Shown: piece after piece, positions 54,463 through 64,000 of the stretch | Numbering within the stretch: the stretch's first letter is position 1 | How the letters are laid out: every line of letters begins with the position of its first letter | Assembly (NCBI RefSeq): GCF_023073415.1 | Contig: NZ_JADPJL010000001.1 | Span: 1 to 64,000, forward strand | DNA length: 64,000 nucleotides | Origin: Bradyrhizobium sp. 190 | Lineage (GTDB): Bacteria > Pseudomonadota > Alphaproteobacteria > Rhizobiales > Xanthobacteraceae | Direction: 5' to 3' | The notes under the pieces: generated by a model | Told to the model about the DNA's origin: nothing | Databases searched by the model: none | The model's input: only the letters and a program-made list of their open reading frames with translations | Position numbers and translations under genes: made by a program

Positions 54463-56013
54463 TTAACCGTTTGCGAGCGGCAAAGCGACGTAACGGGACG
54501 CGTCGCCGGAGCGAAGCCGCATCAGCACGCTACTTTTCTTGTCGGTACGCGCAGCTTCAAGCGCGTCGCCAACGTCACCGGGTTTCGCAACGCTTTTTCC
54601 GGCGACCTCCAGAATAACGTCGCCCTTCTTAAGCCCGCGTTCGGCCGCCGCGCTCTTCGGTTCTACCTTCGCGATAACGACGCCTTCCTTGCTTGCGCCA
54701 TCTGCCTTGCTCGGGGCAAGCTTAAGGCCCAGATGCGGAACGTCGATACCATCGAGTGACCGCTTGGCATCGCCTTCAGTGTTGGCCTTGGCTTGCTGAT
54801 CATTTGGCAGTTGCCCAAGGGTCAGACTGACGACCTTGCTCTGGCCCTTGCGCAGAACGTCAAGCTTGACAGCATTGCCAGGTGCGAATCCGCCGATGAT
54901 GCGGGCGAGTTCACGGGCATCCTTGACCGACTGGCCATTTGCCGCAGTAATGACGTCGCCCGCCTCGATGCCGGCCTTTGCTGCAGGTCCATCCTTCTGC
55001 GGGTCAGCTACCAACGCACCCTGCGCTTGCTTCAAACCCATGCTGTCGGCGATGTCCTGGGTTACCGGCTGAACCTGAACACCGATCCAGCCGCGGCTGA
55101 CGCTTCCGTTGTCCTTCAGTTGAGCGATCACATTCTTCACGGTCATTGCCGGGATCGAAAATGCGATGCCGACGCTGCCGCCGGATGGCGAATAGATCGC
55201 GGTGTTTACGCCGACGACCTCGCCCTGCATATTGAAGGCCGGGCCGCCCGAATTGCCCTTGTTGACGGGCGCGTCGATCTGAATGAAATCGTCGTAAGGG
55301 CCGCTTCCGATGTCACGGCCGTTGGCCGAAACGATACCGGCGGTTACGGTGCCACCCAGGCCAAACGGGTTGCCGACTGCAAGCACCCAATCTCCAATCC
55401 TGGCCTTGCCTGCGGAAAGCTTCGCAAACGAAAAATCTGAACCGCCCTCAACCTTGATCAAGGCCAGGTCTGTCCGCGCATCTGTCCCGATTACTTTCGC
55501 GGTGTAAGTCTTTCCAGTGTCCGTCGTTACCTCGACTTTGTCGGCTCCCTCAACGACATGGTTGTTGGTAACCGCGTATCCATCGGATGAAATGAAGAAA
55601 CCGGAGCCTTGCCCCTTCATGCCATGCCGGCCGTTACGTCCGGGATTTTGATACTCACCATTCGGGCCGCCGAACTGACGGAAGAAGCGCTCCATGGGCG
55701 ACCCGGACTCGTCGGCGTCGTCCTTGTTGCTCGCGTCATTGGCCTTGTCCTTCATTGTGACCTTGACCGAGATCACCGACGGCTTCACCCGCTCCGCCAC
55801 ATCGGCAAAGCCAGGGGGCTGCTGGGTGGCGCCCGATGCGGCGTTAGCAGCCTGGGCATGGGCCGCGCTGCCAAAGATATCGAGTCGATCGGGCGAAGCA
55901 CTGAAGCCATACATTGCGAGCCCGGTCACGACAGATGCCATCAATGCCACTTTTCGTGCCGAGAACAGGGAGCGCTTCCGCTGCCCATGAGAAACAAGGT
56001 TACGTTGGTCCAT
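54463..56013 (-). CDS. DegP/HtrA-type periplasmic serine protease (Do family)
   Basis: A 516-residue protease-chaperone that removes damaged envelope proteins. ATG 56013 has GGAGA seven bases upstream. The N-terminus has a basic stretch and a hydrophobic signal/anchor segment (about 23-40). The trypsin-like triad is His152 (TNNHVVEG), Asp182 (RTDLALIKV) and Ser255 (NKGNSGGPAF), followed by two PDZ domains (about 310-400 and 430-510). The insert RNGRHGMKGQGSGFF precedes the first strand. It is probably induced by envelope stress. Confidence 0.95.
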   Translation of the reverse strand: MDQRNLVSHGQRKRSLFSARKVALMASVVTGLAMYGFSASPDRLDIFGSAAHAQAANAASGATQQPPGFADVAERVKPSVISVKVTMKDKANDASNKDDADESGSPMERFFRQFGGPNGEYQNPGRNGRHGMKGQGSGFFISSDGYAVTNNHVVEGADKVEVTTDTGKTYTAKVIGTDARTDLALIKVEGGSDFSFAKLSAGKARIGDWVLAVGNPFGLGGTVTAGIVSANGRDIGSGPYDDFIQIDAPVNKGNSGGPAFNMQGEVVGVNTAIYSPSGGSVGIAFSIPAMTVKNVIAQLKDNGSVSRGWIGVQVQPVTQDIADSMGLKQAQGALVADPQKDGPAAKAGIEAGDVITAANGQSVKDARELARIIGGFAPGNAVKLDVLRKGQSKVVSLTLGQLPNDQQAKANTEGDAKRSLDGIDVPHLGLKLAPSKADGASKEGVVIAKVEPKSAAAERGLKKGDVILEVAGKSVAKPGDVGDALEAARTDKKSSVLMRLRSGDASRYVALPLANG

Positions 56014-56221
56014 TACAAAATCTCCAGGATGATGATTAAGCGCAAAGCCGCACGCCGCTGTAGATGCGGATTCCCGCATTACACGACGCTGGCGGGGGAA
56101 TTAATGTTTGGAAATGAACTGCCGAAATCGCCTGACGCTTTGGATCGCAAGCCGCTAGCGCGGACGGCGCAGCTGCTTAAAGCGTTTTCGACGGACGTCC
56201 CTTGTTACCACAACGAAGACT

Positions 56222-56341
56222 GTCATGCCCCGCGAAGGCGGGGCATCCAGTACGCCGCGGCCTATCGTTTCTATCATTGCTGTCTCTGGAATACTGGATC
56301 GTCCGCCCCAGTGCGCAATCGCGCACAAGGCGGACGATGAC
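56222..56341. repeat. Dispersed intergenic repeat with nested palindromes
   Basis: It contains ATGCCCCGC pairing with GCGGGGCAT around a four-base loop, CCAGTA at left with TACTGG at right, and CGTCCGCC pairing with GGCGGACG. The text resembles the Bradyrhizobium intergenic repeat that ends in a GCGGACGATGACA-type tail. It lies between a divergent protease promoter and the next repeat. Confidence 0.7.
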
Positions 56342-56414
56342 ACTGAGTATGCCTCCGCAGTCCCGCGACGCGATGCGCCCGAGGTTTGCAAAATGATCGC
56401 CCATGAGAGGGCGC

Positions 56415-56519
56415 AGGGAATGCCGGGTGCCGGCTAGCACCCGCGGTCTCGTGTGCAAGATGCACTTAAGAATGCGCACACGAGCATACAGGTACAGCCG
56501 GAGCAGCCCGGCATTCCCT
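56415..56519. repeat. Long palindromic element, possible structured RNA or REP-type repeat
   Basis: The outer arms AGGGAATGCCGGG (56415-56427) and CCCGGCATTCCCT (56507-56519) match for all 13 bases. The inner arms CTCGTGTGC (56448-56456) and GCACACGAG (56476-56484) match for 9. This nested design suggests a stable branched RNA or a mobile REP-like unit. The sequence beyond, to about 56620, resembles the tail of the same repeat family. Confidence 0.7.
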
Positions 56520-57062
56520 GCACAGTGGTCTTACGGCTTATGCCGCGCTCTCCCCGGAGACGAATTCGTCTTGCCTCCGTCGCCAGCGAATTGACGGCTC
56601 GCATTGCCCGGTCGAGCTTTGCAAACCTCCGCCGGCTTGACACCAGCAACGGGCGCCAGGACCACACGGTTTTGCCGTACGCAGCTTCCTCCGCCAAAAA
56701 ACTTCAAGCAGCCAAGTGCCGGCCGACCGAAGATCTGGCGGAAGCGTTTAAGCGCCGTTCGTCTGCGCGCGATGTTCGCTCACGGAAGCCCGCCCTGCGA
56801 ACACCTCTCGCGCCTGACGCTGCCGCGTCCACCGCAACCCGCCCCAACGTTCGTGACGATGGCCAATGCCCCTCTTCTCGGGACGGGATGGCGGGAGTTG
56901 TAGTGGTGATTTGGGGTGGCGGCGAAGCGGATTATTTTTGCGTACAGGGCTGGACGGGGCAAATCACGTTGAAGTAGTTACGGAAAATCGCGTGGCCGCG
57001 CACGCCCAATAGACCCCGGCTCCGCCCCATCTACGTGCGCGACGAAACTTTTTCGGATCCGG
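56520..57062. other. Gene-free interval after the repeats
   Basis: About 540 bases with no supportable gene. A plus-strand frame spanning 56453-56977 has no ribosome site and its start is inside the palindrome. The first part looks like a continuation of the repeat family. Confidence 0.5.
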
Positions 57063-57965
57063 CTAAAGCCCGAGCGCCAAGCTGACATCGGTCCAACCGA
57101 TAGTCCAAACCCAATAGGTTGAACCAGCGGCTGATGCTCGCATGCGCACCTGACTTGAGACGTCCGTAATTTCCTCAATCTTACAAAGAGCAACTTGGCC
57201 GGCGACTTGCGTGAAGCCCACGTTGGCGTTTCCCGCGGCTACGGCTTGATCGGAGATATCCAATGACGACACCAACAAACCAACGCCGGCGCCGGGGGCA
57301 GACATCGCTACATTCATAATGACCTTCGTTTTGATGCCGGGCGGCGCCGTGACCGCTTGACTGACGGCAGTAGTACCAATTGTGGAGCTGTTGACGTTTT
57401 GGACGGAAACATACCAAAGGAACGTAGAGCCGATCTGACTAAACCTGATCCACTGGCCTGTGCCATCAGTTTTCATTGAACCGATACGGCGCTGTTTGGT
57501 GTAATTTGCCGGCAAAGTCGGCGTCGTCGCGGATAGCGAAACCAGGATGTCGACCACGCCGGTATCGACTCTCTCGATCAAGAAGACATGATACCAGGTG
57601 TTGTTGGCTATAGTGCCACTATCCAATGACCCCGTACCCGATCCAACGGCCCAAGCGCCCGTCGACTTGGAATAGGCGGTCGACAGCTTCATCGACACCG
57701 TCTGGTCGTTGGATGTTGCTATGCCGGCAGCAATTCCAAAATTAGGTGAGCTTCCAGCCGTGGAGAGTGTTAGGCCGCTCAAATAGCCTCTCGGCGCGGA
57801 CTGATTGTTCAAACAGTGCAGAAGCGCGTTGAAATTAGCCATCACCTGCGTAGCGTCGGCATTGGTGCCATTGGCCAGAGTGTTTGGCACCGAACAATTC
57901 TGCGCGTGTGCACCGTGACCGAGAACCAGCAAAAAAGAAAACGCGGCAAGCAAGGGACGGATCAT
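57063..57965 (-). CDS. Exported protein with phage tail-fibre-like domain
   Basis: A 300-residue protein from ATG 57965, with a signal peptide (IRPLLAAFSFLLVLGHGAHAQ) followed by NCSVPNTLANGTNADATQVMANFNALLHCLN. The main part (APRGYLSGLTLSTAGSSPNFGIAAGIATSN, then NNTWYHVFLIERVDTGVVDILVS and NYTKQRRIGSMKTDGTGQW) has the repetitive beta layout of tail-fibre or receptor-binding proteins of alphaproteobacterial prophages, yet no phage genes are nearby. Combining a Sec signal with such a domain is unusual and suggests a domesticated surface or adhesive protein. The domain call is by resemblance. Confidence 0.7.
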   Translation of the reverse strand: MIRPLLAAFSFLLVLGHGAHAQNCSVPNTLANGTNADATQVMANFNALLHCLNNQSAPRGYLSGLTLSTAGSSPNFGIAAGIATSNDQTVSMKLSTAYSKSTGAWAVGSGTGSLDSGTIANNTWYHVFLIERVDTGVVDILVSLSATTPTLPANYTKQRRIGSMKTDGTGQWIRFSQIGSTFLWYVSVQNVNSSTIGTTAVSQAVTAPPGIKTKVIMNVAMSAPGAGVGLLVSSLDISDQAVAAGNANVGFTQVAGQVALCKIEEITDVSSQVRMRASAAGSTYWVWTIGWTDVSLALGL

Positions 57966-58177
57966 TACAAGGCTCCATGCGTTGTCAATTTTAAATTGTA
58001 TGTTCACGTCTAACATTTTTGGATTGATAACGCCAGCAAGCTGTGTAAAAAATATTCCCGCACGTCTCTGTTCGCTTTTTGTGAAACGAGGAGCTGAGCA
58101 AGATCGCACTCACTCACACTTCCTAGAATTGATCGATCGTCGTCCGGACAAGACCAACTCCAAGAAGGAACGAAGCG

Positions 58178-58483
58178 ATGACTGCCCTGTGCAATCCAAA
58201 TGCATTTCTGATCCGGATATCGGCAACCTTCGTCACCGGCGCTCTTGCGGCTGTCATGACATTGACACCGGTATACGCAGCCAACGGCTCCGTGGCCTAC
58301 ACCTATGACGCGCTCGGTCGCGTCACGACGGCCAGTTACGACACCGGCGTCTGCATCATCTACACGTACGATCCTAACGGAAACCGTCTCTCCGAGACCA
58401 TCAACGTCACTGCCGCGGGCGCCACCGGCGTATGGGGCTGCTTCAACTGGAATGCCAGCGGAGGCGCGAAGTGGGGATCGTGA
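58178..58483 (+). CDS. Small secreted YD/RHS-repeat peptide
   Basis: A 101-residue protein preceded by AAGGAAC. The signal peptide (SATFVTGALAAVMTLTPVYAA) is followed by two YD motifs: VAYTYDALGRVTTASYD and IIYTYDPNGNRLSETIN. The C-terminus (GVWGCFNWNASGGAKWGS) is aromatic and short. Only about two RHS repeats are present, compared with dozens in full RHS shells. It lies 47 bases ahead of a giant RHS gene and may be co-transcribed with it. Its role, such as lid, plug, regulator or decoy, is unknown. Confidence 0.78.
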   Translation: MTALCNPNAFLIRISATFVTGALAAVMTLTPVYAANGSVAYTYDALGRVTTASYDTGVCIIYTYDPNGNRLSETINVTAAGATGVWGCFNWNASGGAKWGS

Positions 58484-58530: not shown

Positions 58531-61500
58531 ATGCGAACCATGCGGACGTTGCTCGCGACAATACTTCTTTCGCTACCCACTCTTCTTGCAATGGAGGCGG
58601 TTACCATTGGTCTAGTCCGAGCGGACGAAACACCCGCCGGCATGAGGATGAACGTCATCCCCGAACGCGTCGCGCATCCGATCACGCAGGATGCTCCGGT
58701 CGTGATACCGTATGTCACGCAGACGAAGAGCGGCGGCGCTTCAAATCAAACCCCACCAACCTCAACGTCATCGCAACTCGCGTTGGCTACTCAATCCGGC
58801 GGCGCGCGATCGGTGGGCTGCGCCCCGGCTAGTTCCCAGCCGGCGCCTCTCGTTGCTCTGGCATCAGCTCTGAAATGCGACGCAGATCTCATCTTCGAAT
58901 ACGTCTACAACAACATTGAATTTGAGCCCCTCTACGGCAGCAACAAAGGAGCGCTCGGAACACTTCTCGATCGCCGGGGCAATGACGCCGACCAGGCAAT
59001 TCTATTCGTTACGTTGCTCAACATCGCAGGATATTCGCAAACCGGATACGCAAGCGTACTGCTGGGAATGACCGGGGCCCAGATCGCAAATTGGCTAGGG
59101 GTCGCCAACGATGCGACCGCAATTGGAGCGCTTCTAAGCGGAGGCGGAATTCCGTTCACAAACGCGGTGGTCAATCCGAACGGCTCGCTTGCATCAATCC
59201 AGGTACTCCATTTTCTAGCGGCCTTGCAGCTCAATGGGACGTGGTACTATTTCGACCCGAGTTTCAAATTTCACAGTATCGTCACGGGCGCTTCGTCCCT
59301 CGCTTCAGCGCTTGGTTATGACAAGACGCAATTTCTTGCACATGCAGGCGGTACTATCGACAGTAATTCCATTTCAAACATTAACCGCGTCAATCTAAGA
59401 GCCGACCTCGTCCAATACGCGACGAACTTGATCAACTACATAAATCAGCATGACCGTACGTGGTCCATCAGCAATTTGATTGGCGGCAAATCGATACAGC
59501 CGTTAACAGGCTCGCCGATCCGCTGGCAGATTCCTTCGGTGACTCCAACATCGGCGTTCCCCGCCAACTGCCCCTTTCAGTCTCCGGTGGTTGAATGCAG
59601 AACCTCCGTTAAAATAACGATGCCTGGGGCTTCAGCTGGTCAGGCGATCAAGCTCTATACAGATCAGACATACGGTCACAGGATTACAGTATTCTCAACA
59701 TCCAGCGATGCAAATTTCGTCCCGACGTTGCTGGTTGATGGTCTCGCACCAAGCTGCGTGGCCAGCGGGACTTGCACCAATGTTGGCCCAGCGACGGCGC
59801 CAGGACCGAACCTGACGTGGTCGATATCCACCGAGATCACTCAAACTAACCAGGGTTCATCTGCGGGCTGTGTATCCGGTGTAACTGGCTGCGGCACACT
59901 GAAAATTGCGGTCGGCGGTTCTTTTTTAATTAATCTTGGCGTCGGAAAAGTGGGCCGCGGAATGGCTGAATATCACCGACAATTGCTTGCCCAGGCGCGC
60001 GCCACCGGGAATTCCGATAGCTCCGAACCAGTTCTGGGAGAGAGCCTCGCTTCTATCGGCTTCGGCTATCTCGCCCAATTTTCCGCTCAGCAAGACATCG
60101 TCGAACAACTCATCCGTGTTTCCGCGCAATACTACTTTGACATCGGAATAGTAGGGCAATCGCAAATTCAACAATCGGGTTTCCAAGGACCCTATATCGA
60201 CCTACCGCTGAGTCGCGGCGGCACTTTCCCTTGGAACTCCGGTGGTCCCACAACAACAATCGGCCCAAACACGTATCAGACGTCAGTTGTATCCTCCGGA
60301 TTCTCGAAAGCGCTTCCCGCCAGCTCCTTTGAATCGGCAATCCTTGAGCAAACACAAGCGCCCGTCCCGGGCATGACCGCGGCCTCAACGATCAAGCTGA
60401 TCGATACCAACATGGATCCATCCTATCCGGGCGCGCTCGGCAGGACATTCTTCGCCGACGGCACCACGGCCGCGGGTCAGGCAACGTACACCAACACAAT
60501 CGTTCCATTGATACAGGCCAACTACAGCCCGACTGATCTTGCCAAAATATCGGCTGCTGTCTCGGGCGGTAGCCAAGTCCTGATTCCGCAAAACGGTCTT
60601 CTTGCAGTGGGGCACTGGACGGGTAGTGGATTCCTTGGCGTACTTCCACAACCTAGCGCGGTAACATTTGCATTGAGTATCACCGGCGGCATGTCGGGCG
60701 CCTTTACGGGAGTGAATGACCCAAATCCGGCACCGAACTCGCAAACGACCTTGCCACCGGCCGCAAACTCGGACACGGCCAATCCGCTGATAAACACGAC
60801 TCCTTCTCCCTTCAATCCTCAGATCGCCGACCCCGTGGACGGCATCACAGGCGCGTACGTGTATAAGCATAACGACCTTGTGACCGGCAGCGGCAAATTT
60901 CCTTACGCGCTGGACTTTTCTAGGACTTATCTCTCCTCTTCGGGCAGTTCATTGACGACGACCGCCGCCGACACCGGGATCGGAAATGGCTGGGCACACA
61001 ATTGGAGCAGCAACGTCGCGATACAGAGTGACCCTTACCTCAGTATCGGCAAGGCCAGTTCGCCCGCGATCAGCGCCGCTACATCGATCGTTGCCCTTTT
61101 CATCATTCAAGACCTGATGTCGGCAACCCCTACGGCACAGACTCTGACAATTTCATCGATGATCACTCGCTGGTTTACCGACCAATTGACTGGCAACGCA
61201 GCGATGGTGACGCTACCCAACACTACCGAAGAGTTCATCGCGCTGCCTCACGCCGATGGAAGCAGCAGCGTGACATACAATGCACCGCCTGGATCGTCCG
61301 CTCGCCTCGCCCGGAACGCAGGCCAGTTTTCCTACACGCTCAAGGACGGGGTTGTCTTGAACTTCGGCTCAACTCCGGCCGGTGCGTTGCAAAGTATAGT
61401 CTACCCTAACGGAGTCACCGTCAGTCTTAGTTATTCTGGATCTCCCCTGCGGCTCAACCGTATCGCCAACAATCTAGGACGGAGTTTTGATCTCGCGTAT

Positions 61501-64000
61501 AATTCCGGCCGTGTTTCAAGCGTTACCGATGACTCCGGTCGAAGCGTAACCTATACTTACGACGGCAGTCACAATCTCACGGGGTTCACAGACCCCCTTG
61601 GCGCCACAACCACCTTCGCCTACGACACCTCTGGCACCTTTGACACGCTCGGGCACCTAACCCAAATCTTCTATCCATCCTTTCCCACGAACGCCTTTGT
61701 GAGCAACTGGTACGATCCGCTCGGCAGGGTCGTCAGGCAGGCGAATGCCATCGGGGGAATCTCACAGTACTATTTCGCAGGATCGCGCACCGAGCAGGTA
61801 GACCCGTTCGGAAATCGTCAGGTTACCTATCAGACAGATCGCGGGCGGGTTCTGAAAGATGCGTCGGTGCTGAGCAACGCCTTCGGCAATGTCTTTGGCG
61901 ACACTATCCAGCAGAATGGCTTGGTCAATGTTACCACCAATCAATATGATGGACTGGATCGCTTAAAGGCGACCTTTTTTCCGGAAAAGGGAGCAGTTTC
62001 TTACGAATACGCCACTAACGTCAATCCGTGGGCTAACAATGTTTCGTTCTACACGCAATTCCCGAAGCCTGGCTTTTCGGGTGGGGCCATCACGAAATTT
62101 GAGTATGACGCCAACTACAACAAAGTGACGAAGACCACCGATTCACTCGGGCTGATCGGCACTTTGGGATATGAACCGTCCACGGGGAACCTCACATCGG
62201 CAATTAACGACGCAGGCGGAGCAGGACACTTCAACGCTACTTCCCGATTCACGTACAATTCCTCCGGTCAGCCGGTCACTGCGACCGATCCGCTCGGCTC
62301 CGTAACTCAATTTTCCTATGACAGCCTTGGCAACCAAACCTCGATTGTTCGTGACGCCGGCGCTGGACGCCTCAATCAGCTAACCACATTCACCTACAAC
62401 CCGCGTGGCGATGTTGTTTCGATCACCGATCCGAAGGGAAACACTACAACAAATACTTATGACGACGCCCGCCGGCTGATTACGACGACTGCGGCGAACG
62501 GCCTGATCACCACCTACAAATACGATCCGGACGGTCACGTCATCAACGTGAAGCAGACCTTATACGGCTCGGTACTGCGGAACACAGGCACGACTTATAC
62601 CGCTACCGGCAAGCCCGCGACCGTGACCGATGCCAACGGCTTTATCACCACCTTTAGCTATGACCTTCTTGATCGAGTCCTGAGCGTTAAGGACGCGATG
62701 GGTCGAACGACGAGCTATGGTTATGACGCGCTCAGTCGGCAAACGTCGATTTCAAACCTCGCGGTACAAACCGCTCCGCTGTTGCAGAAAAGCTATACGC
62801 CGGATGGGCTGCTCGCGACCCTAATCGACGCGAACAACCGCACCACCAGCTTTGCCTATGATGGGCTCGACCGTCTCGCGACCACCACCTATCCGCTTGG
62901 CAGCACGGAAACGCTAACGTACGACGCCAATAACAACATTTTGACCCGCAAGACCCGCGCCAATCAGGCCATCAGCTTCACCTACGACACCCTGAACCGG
63001 CTGAAGACCAAGACGCCGCCCTCGCCCGCGCCCGTGGTGAGCTATACCTACGACCTCGCCAGCCGCCTGACCGGCATCAGCGACACCAGCGCGGCGATCG
63101 CGTCCGCGGTGCCGCCGTCCGGATCGTCGGCACAGTATTCCATGGCTTATAGCTATGATGCGCTGAACCGGCCAACCGCCGTGACCTGGACCCCTGCCCC
63201 GAGCGTGGCGGCGCCAGTCGCCGGCAGCGTCACCTTTGGCCATAGCTACAACAGAGTGAACCAACGCATCGGCCAGACTGTGACCGACAACACTTGGTTC
63301 AATTATCCCGCTGCAACACCCAGCGCAGTGGGCTACACCGCGAACGCACTCAATCAATATACCACGGTCGGCGCGGTGACGCCGAGCTATGACGGCAACG
63401 GCAATCTCACCTCGGACGGCACTTTCACCTTCGGCTACGATTCCCAGAACCGGCTGATTTCGGCCAGCGGCGCCGGCAGCACGGCGAGCTATACGTTTGA
63501 CGCGCAGGGCCGGCGCAAGACGAAGACCGTGAACGGCACGACGACGGTATTCGTCACCGATGCCAACAATCGCGAGGTGCTGGAATATGACGGTGCCAGC
63601 GGCGCGATCGTGCGCTGGTATGCCTATGGACTTGGCTCCAACGACGTGCTGAGTCAAATGAACGTGGTGGCCTCCACGCGCGCGACCTTCGTTCCAGATA
63701 TTCTGGGTTCGGTTATCGGTTCACAGGATTCAAGTTCGGGCACCCTGACCAGGATCGGCTATCTGCCTTACGGCAAGAGTACGAACGCGCCCGCGACGTA
63801 CGGTTACACGGCACAGCGCATCGATCCGGAGACCAGCGGGCTGTATTATTACCGTGCGCGGCATTATTCGCCGGCATGGGGACGGTTCTTGCAGACGGAC
63901 CCGATTGGGTATCGCGGAGGCAACCATCTCTATGCCTATGTCGGCAACGATCCGGTCAATCTGATCGATCCGTTTGGATTGGCGTCAGATAATCCGAGCA
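58531..64000 (+). CDS. Giant RHS-repeat protein with signal peptide, right end outside the window
   Basis: An uninterrupted frame of 1823 codons that is still open at 64000. ATG 58531 has AGGGAAA upstream and a signal peptide follows (LLATILLSLPTLLAMEAVTIG, then VRA). Residues about 110-190 look transglutaminase-like (CDADLIFEYVYNNIEFEPLYG to FVTLLNIAGYSQ). A DPVDGITGAYVYKHNDL segment near 768-790 opens the RHS region, and many YD repeats run from about 980 on. The end DPIGYRGGNHLYAYVGNDPVNLIDPFG is the conserved core motif after which such proteins carry a variable C-terminal domain, which lies beyond the window. Sec export rather than type VI delivery is implied. Confidence 0.93.
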   Translation, partial: MRTMRTLLATILLSLPTLLAMEAVTIGLVRADETPAGMRMNVIPERVAHPITQDAPVVIPYVTQTKSGGASNQTPPTSTSSQLALATQSGGARSVGCAPASSQPAPLVALASALKCDADLIFEYVYNNIEFEPLYGSNKGALGTLLDRRGNDADQAILFVTLLNIAGYSQTGYASVLLGMTGAQIANWLGVANDATAIGALLSGGGIPFTNAVVNPNGSLASIQVLHFLAALQLNGTWYYFDPSFKFHSIVTGASSLASALGYDKTQFLAHAGGTIDSNSISNINRVNLRADLVQYATNLINYINQHDRTWSISNLIGGKSIQPLTGSPIRWQIPSVTPTSAFPANCPFQSPVVECRTSVKITMPGASAGQAIKLYTDQTYGHRITVFSTSSDANFVPTLLVDGLAPSCVASGTCTNVGPATAPGPNLTWSISTEITQTNQGSSAGCVSGVTGCGTLKIAVGGSFLINLGVGKVGRGMAEYHRQLLAQARATGNSDSSEPVLGESLASIGFGYLAQFSAQQDIVEQLIRVSAQYYFDIGIVGQSQIQQSGFQGPYIDLPLSRGGTFPWNSGGPTTTIGPNTYQTSVVSSGFSKALPASSFESAILEQTQAPVPGMTAASTIKLIDTNMDPSYPGALGRTFFADGTTAAGQATYTNTIVPLIQANYSPTDLAKISAAVSGGSQVLIPQNGLLAVGHWTGSGFLGVLPQPSAVTFALSITGGMSGAFTGVNDPNPAPNSQTTLPPAANSDTANPLINTTPSPFNPQIADPVDGITGAYVYKHNDLVTGSGKFPYALDFSRTYLSSSGSSLTTTAADTGIGNGWAHNWSSNVAIQSDPYLSIGKASSPAISAATSIVALFIIQDLMSATPTAQTLTISSMITRWFTDQLTGNAAMVTLPNTTEEFIALPHADGSSSVTYNAPPGSSARLARNAGQFSYTLKDGVVLNFGSTPAGALQSIVYPNGVTVSLSYSGSPLRLNRIANNLGRSFDLAYNSGRVSSVTDDSGRSVTYTYDGSHNLTGFTDPLGATTTFAYDTSGTFDTLGHLTQIFYPSFPTNAFVSNWYDPLGRVVRQANAIGGISQYYFAGSRTEQVDPFGNRQVTYQTDRGRVLKDASVLSNAFGNVFGDTIQQNGLVNVTTNQYDGLDRLKATFFPEKGAVSYEYATNVNPWANNVSFYTQFPKPGFSGGAITKFEYDANYNKVTKTTDSLGLIGTLGYEPSTGNLTSAINDAGGAGHFNATSRFTYNSSGQPVTATDPLGSVTQFSYDSLGNQTSIVRDAGAGRLNQLTTFTYNPRGDVVSITDPKGNTTTNTYDDARRLITTTAANGLITTYKYDPDGHVINVKQTLYGSVLRNTGTTYTATGKPATVTDANGFITTFSYDLLDRVLSVKDAMGRTTSYGYDALSRQTSISNLAVQTAPLLQKSYTPDGLLATLIDANNRTTSFAYDGLDRLATTTYPLGSTETLTYDANNNILTRKTRANQAISFTYDTLNRLKTKTPPSPAPVVSYTYDLASRLTGISDTSAAIASAVPPSGSSAQYSMAYSYDALNRPTAVTWTPAPSVAAPVAGSVTFGHSYNRVNQRIGQTVTDNTWFNYPAATPSAVGYTANALNQYTTVGAVTPSYDGNGNLTSDGTFTFGYDSQNRLISASGAGSTASYTFDAQGRRKTKTVNGTTTVFVTDANNREVLEYDGASGAIVRWYAYGLGSNDVLSQMNVVASTRATFVPDILGSVIGSQDSSSGTLTRIGYLPYGKSTNAPATYGYTAQRIDPETSGLYYYRARHYSPAWGRFLQTDPIGYRGGNHLYAYVGNDPVNLIDPFGLASDNPS

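Follow-up and report, generated by a model that had tools for sequence, protein, structure and literature searches.

A single large open reading frame built of RHS repeats runs off the end of the 64,000-nucleotide stretch of Bradyrhizobium sp. 190 analysed here (the window; positions 1–64000 of contig NZ_JADPJL010000001.1), raising the question of what the protein ends in. An earlier note, made from the window alone, proposed that the conserved RHS core closes at the edge and that a variable, toxin-like tip and a small immunity gene should follow. The frame begins at 58531 on the forward strand and is uninterrupted to 64000. The contig is 236,059 bases long, and we also read the 12 kb beyond the edge, where the frame reaches a stop codon at 64464. 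The complete protein, termed the carrier, has 1,977 amino acids. It neither stops early after the core nor continues as YD repeats without a small gene behind it. Very probably, the last 90 residues of its 161-residue tip have a GIY-YIG nuclease fold and form a toxin that likely cuts the DNA of rivals, and the gene 9 bases downstream encodes an Imm44-like immunity protein.

The carrier has the anatomy of an RHS polymorphic toxin, with YD/RHS repeats in an array that ends in an RHS-associated core (Table 1). A profile search finds 11 RHS_repeat stretches in the protein, far above chance (E=1.3e-64). Across the 8.61 Mb genome there are 11 RHS_repeat matches, 10 in the carrier and one in the small YD gene adjoining it. 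All 76 profile positions of Rhs_assc_core (TIGR03696) are covered (E=1.1e-20). As the earlier note had read it, the core closes near the edge with RFLQTDPIGY (residues 1785–1794, bases 63883–63912) and DPVNLIDPFG; the last residue of DPFG is 1816 (base 63978), which leaves 7 codons to the edge rather than the roughly 10 claimed.

The 161 residues beyond DPFG consist of a linker and a compact 90-residue end, and no YD repeat was matched in them by profile search. The compact end is predicted with confidence (predicted local distance difference test, pLDDT, 90.8). The best structural matches of the model are GIY-YIG domains of UvrC, and I-TevI is also among the closest, so that the domain is predicted to have the GIY-YIG (URI) fold. 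It scores 16.7 bits against Tox-URI2 (PF15653), below the Pfam cut-off of 20, and we therefore class it as Tox-URI2-like only. The Tox-URI2 motif printed in Zhang et al. (2012; PMC3482391), Y, KxG and [EQ], can be read by eye in the domain as Y16, K28-x-G30 and E69, and all of these except Y16 are invariant across 17 aligned rows. Glu1956 and Arg1927 of the carrier are the predicted catalytic residues. With Tox-URI2 it shares, in addition to motif and predicted fold, the place after an RHS core and an adjoining gene like a listed partner family. It differs in its score, and also in keeping R, RxxE and N, residues printed for Tox-URI1 in that paper. Zhang et al. liken the URI toxins to DNA-cutting enzymes, and passages of two Salmonella papers list Tox-URI2 as a predicted DNase on the basis of bioinformatic analyses (PMC8867033, PMC10469887). 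Thus a toxin-like tip was correctly anticipated, at a Pfam score below the cut-off.

The small gene that had been expected next lies directly downstream of the carrier and encodes 164 amino acids. A precomputed label in the protein database assigns Imm44 (PF15571.13) to 46 of 47 relatives of this protein. The protein itself scores 18.3 bits against PF15571.11, below the cut-off of 25; at E ≤ 0.01 this model matches 21 of 33 sequences, a set made of the 164-residue protein and 32 of the 47 relatives. Its predicted make-up is mixed alpha+beta, which it has in common with Imm44, as it does the place after a tip. From these sequence comparisons the gene is likely Imm44-like. The partners of Imm44 listed by Zhang et al. 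(2012) are Tox-URI1, Tox-URI2 and Tox-ParBL1, and here the neighbour is a Tox-URI2-like tip.

A second locus points to the same pairing. The best plasmid match of the tip (38% identity over 55 residues) is in a VgrG-DcrB-RHS locus on plasmid IV of Paracoccus aminovorans (NZ_LN832562.1), where the gene directly next bears an Imm44 annotation and scores above the cut-off. Unlike ours, that carrier is of the type VI kind: genes for VgrG and a DcrB-related protein precede it. The locus is an independent case of the tip-Imm44 pairing. Furthermore, in 3 of 16 tip clusters the longest contig is equal in size to that of an immunity cluster (1237, 11964 and 519043 bases), which suggests adjacency, short of proof. 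Weighing against this pairing, the Paracoccus Imm44 protein (135 residues, versus 164 here) and our protein give no significant alignment. In a Chloroflexi RHS gene with a related tip, the small frame that follows has no Imm44 match, so that the nuclease type may not be bound to any single immunity family. Relatives of the immunity protein also occur in other settings. One metagenome protein (P0005, 277 residues) joins an Imm44-like relative and YD repeats in a single frame; it looks as though recombination with a fragment of RHS had caught an immunity gene, unless the sequence is an assembly chimera. A Variovorax plasmid gene (L033 7821-8270 (+)) is 37% identical to half of the 164-residue protein, and the 16-kb stretch in which it lies carries no annotated RHS gene; it is perhaps an orphan immunity gene.

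Is the tip exchanged independently of its carrier? Using the first 739 residues as query, we found the carrier in 3 of 265 genomes of the genus: this genome and two others, indexed as G075 and G190. By their neighbouring frames the three carriers have differing surroundings, and each has a dissimilar tip and a different small gene downstream, which in G075 and G190 overlaps the carrier stop by 4 bases. Over residues 1801–1820 identity is 14/20 to G075 and 13/20 to G190. Over residues 1821–1840, just past DPxG, it falls to 3/20 and 2/20, and beyond this it lies between 1 and 7 of 20. At the nucleotide level, the similarity to G190 extends up to base 63954 and stops just short of the tip. Thus one carrier bears switched tips from the end of the core, where the earlier note had placed the start of the variable region. 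Neither the tip nor the immunity gene was found in the other genomes of the genus (265 searched). Toxin domain and immunity gene together (777 bases) are 45.8% GC, the most AT-rich stretch of the 76 kb: among 2,947 windows of 777 bases taken at 25-base steps, leaving out those that touch the pair, none is as low, and the minimum is 51.0%. In the siblings, tip plus partner is likewise below its own carrier in GC (55.3 versus 61.2%, and 51.3 versus 58.5%). The collapse of identity after DPxG and the low GC fit swaps at the end of the core, and the pair was likely gained as a cassette through recombination at this conserved point.

The sibling tips are of other kinds. The G190 tip (171 residues; L015 5622-6137 (-)) has no Pfam match at E ≤ 0.1; it contains GSAARG...SDIDYIV, which, by eye, we take to resemble a nucleotidyltransferase motif. 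Its partner (89 residues; L015 5356-5625 (-)) has only a sub-threshold match. The G075 tip (185 residues; L014 8947-9504 (+)) also has no Pfam match at E ≤ 0.1, and the next gene (L014 9501-9821 (+)) matches DUF6572 with 106 bits. DUF6572 may be an immunity family.

The other end of the carrier bears on how the tip would leave the cell. Behind a signal-like leader lies a transglutaminase-like domain, which scores 20.3 bits against PF01841 (cut-off 23); the G190 domain is also below the cut-off, and that of G075 is above it (29.6 bits). With the triad assigned by eye, the alignment of the three carriers retains His227 and Asp242 in each but has Asp (Asp152 here) at the position expected for the catalytic Cys. 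By this assignment, the domain after the leader lacks one of the three catalytic residues and is of the predicted inactive type. Passages of Zhang et al. (2012) describe inactive transglutaminase domains placed directly after a signal peptide or transmembrane helix and followed by RHS repeats, perhaps for surface anchoring. From its sequence, our carrier matches this architecture without essential difference, from the signal-like leader and Cys-less domain to the repeats and the variable tip; the small YD and tail-fibre-like neighbours described below are unmentioned in those passages. The N-terminus is thus no sign of novelty, as had been supposed. Nor is the idea of a novel payload supported, as PMC3482391 already contains both the toxin and the immunity type, the pairing of the two and the architecture of the N-terminus. 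The payload is of the expected kind, made of parts of already described kinds.

Taken together, the sequence describes an RHS toxin of the Sec type that ends in a Tox-URI2-like tip and is paired with an Imm44-like protein; its toxicity, target and export are predictions. We infer the following course of action. The leader would route the carrier through Sec, and the protein would be displayed at the surface. The YD repeats would form a shell around the tip, which would be released by cleavage near DPFG; the solved Rhs and Tc shells are the basis for both steps. The released tip would then enter a neighbouring cell and cut nucleic acid, probably DNA. In the producer and its kin, the Imm44-like protein, which has no evident leader, would block the toxin within the cytoplasm. 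To our knowledge, the way in which Sec-type RHS proteins exit Gram-negative bacteria and are delivered to a target is poorly known.

Several other readings share parts of this evidence; the probabilities we attach to them are rough, overlap and need not sum to one. One keeps everything except the substrate: the tip would be an RNase of GIY-YIG fold, cutting for example tRNA or rRNA. A lysine does replace the second tyrosine of the classical GIY-YIG enzymes (KxG, not YxG), and PMC3482391 lists RNases among the toxins carried by RHS proteins in many cases. However, the closest structural rows, UvrC and I-TevI, are DNA-cutting enzymes, and the literature on URI toxins and Tox-URI2 cited above likewise points to DNA. 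We consider an RNase unlikely, with a small but real chance of being correct. It is also conceivable that the tip keeps its fold and is no longer a toxin, being a decayed or domesticated end beside a small gene retained by chance. Its presence in only 1 of the 265 genomes and the sub-threshold Pfam scores of both tip and small gene would agree with decay. Against this, neither the frame nor the small gene is disrupted, the motif residues persist here and in the relatives, and the small gene resembles a known partner family; we consider decay very improbable.

The carrier might instead be a type VI effector loaded on the spike, as classical Rhs effectors are, and the related Paracoccus tip does adjoin VgrG and a DcrB-related protein. 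Here, however, the protein has a signal-like leader and a transglutaminase-like domain instead, and a profile search of the carrier for PAAR gave no match at E ≤ 1. Neither TssC/VipB nor TssK/VasE was found at E ≤ 0.001 in the genome (assembly listed as 100% complete), other type VI secretion genes not having been searched. We give this reading hardly any weight. The preference of the earlier note for Sec over type VI is consistent with these results, with the leader recognised by eye and export itself a conjecture. Thus we favour the DNA-cutting, Sec-exported toxin with its Imm44-like partner.

Table 1. Features of the RHS locus. Positions are those of the window; positions above 64000 lie beyond it on the same contig.
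Feature	Position	Strand	Evidence or remark
Divergent tail-fibre-like gene, 348 aa from GTG	57063..58109	-	PHROG tail fiber protein E=1.7e-6, residues 155-294
Small signal-peptide-like protein, 101 aa, two RHS_repeat stretches	58178-58483	+	Leader by eye
RHS carrier gene	58531..64000, on to 64464 beyond the window	+	RHS_repeat E=1.3e-64; Rhs_assc_core E=1.1e-20
Signal-peptide-like leader, about residues 1-33	58531..58629	+	By eye
Transglutaminase-like domain, about residues 111-246	58861..59268	+	PF01841 E=0.00072 over residues 111-168, below cut-off
DUF6531 domain, residues 767-834	60829..61032	+	PF20148 E=9e-9, above cut-off
RHS-associated core, residues 1744-1817, closing with DPFG	63760..63981	+	TIGR03696 E=1.1e-20
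Tip, first codons	63979..64000	+	Remainder beyond the window, same contig
Linker with hydrophobic Ala/Gly-rich stretch, residues 1817-1887	to 64191	+	Continues beyond the window
Predicted GIY-YIG, Tox-URI2-like toxin-like domain, residues 1888-1977	64192-64464	+	Model and motif; GC 45.4%
Imm44-like immunity gene, 164 aa	64474-64968	+	Starts 9 bases past the carrier stop; GC 46.1%

Upstream of the carrier, the 101-residue YD protein has a 92% identical counterpart in front of the G190 carrier and a 42-residue remnant (88%) in G075. The divergent tail-fibre-like gene beyond it is the least explained piece of the locus. A match to it lies about half a kilobase or less from the carrier in all three carrier genomes; any match at all occurs in 29 of the 265 genomes. 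The G190 match (G190:C1:3572030-3572347) covers residues 1–106 of the GTG-started frame at 80% identity, and the G075 match (G075:C112:82588-83097) covers residues 182–341 at 35%. Because different parts match in the two genomes, the gene itself looks mosaic in sequence. The first 48 residues of the frame are probably untranslated, because stops occur there in G190; translation more likely begins with the ATG at 57965, which gives 300 residues with a signal-like leader by eye. The whole locus could be one mobile weapon module, in which this signal-bearing protein would be a dedicated recognition partner that takes the Sec-exported RHS shell to the target cell, by a route unlike type VI, Tc or contact-dependent inhibition (CDI). 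We regard this as quite unlikely.

Other observations concern the surroundings. In a further genome (G082) a related tail-fibre-like gene (L047 4703-5568) lies near a different RHS gene (L047 12-4335), which has another kind of N-terminus and a frame that ends early beside a transposase-like gene, by eye. An HtrA/DegP-like protease gene (54463-56079 (-)) adjoins the locus. It seems to be an additional copy, since the genome has another on contig C66 that is 71% identical, the same level as the best copies in relatives of the genus (71–72%). To the left of the locus, 767 bases (56241-57007), perhaps a dispersed repeat or else a piece of the module, are 82% identical to a stretch that lies close to the carrier in G190, elsewhere on the chromosome.

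Just beyond the window edge lies a complete predicted pair of toxin and immunity protein, and its carrier is rare in the genus (3 of 265 species genomes). With a tail-fibre-like gene as neighbour, and in a genome where searches found neither TssC nor TssK, the locus is a compact test case for Sec-type RHS delivery.
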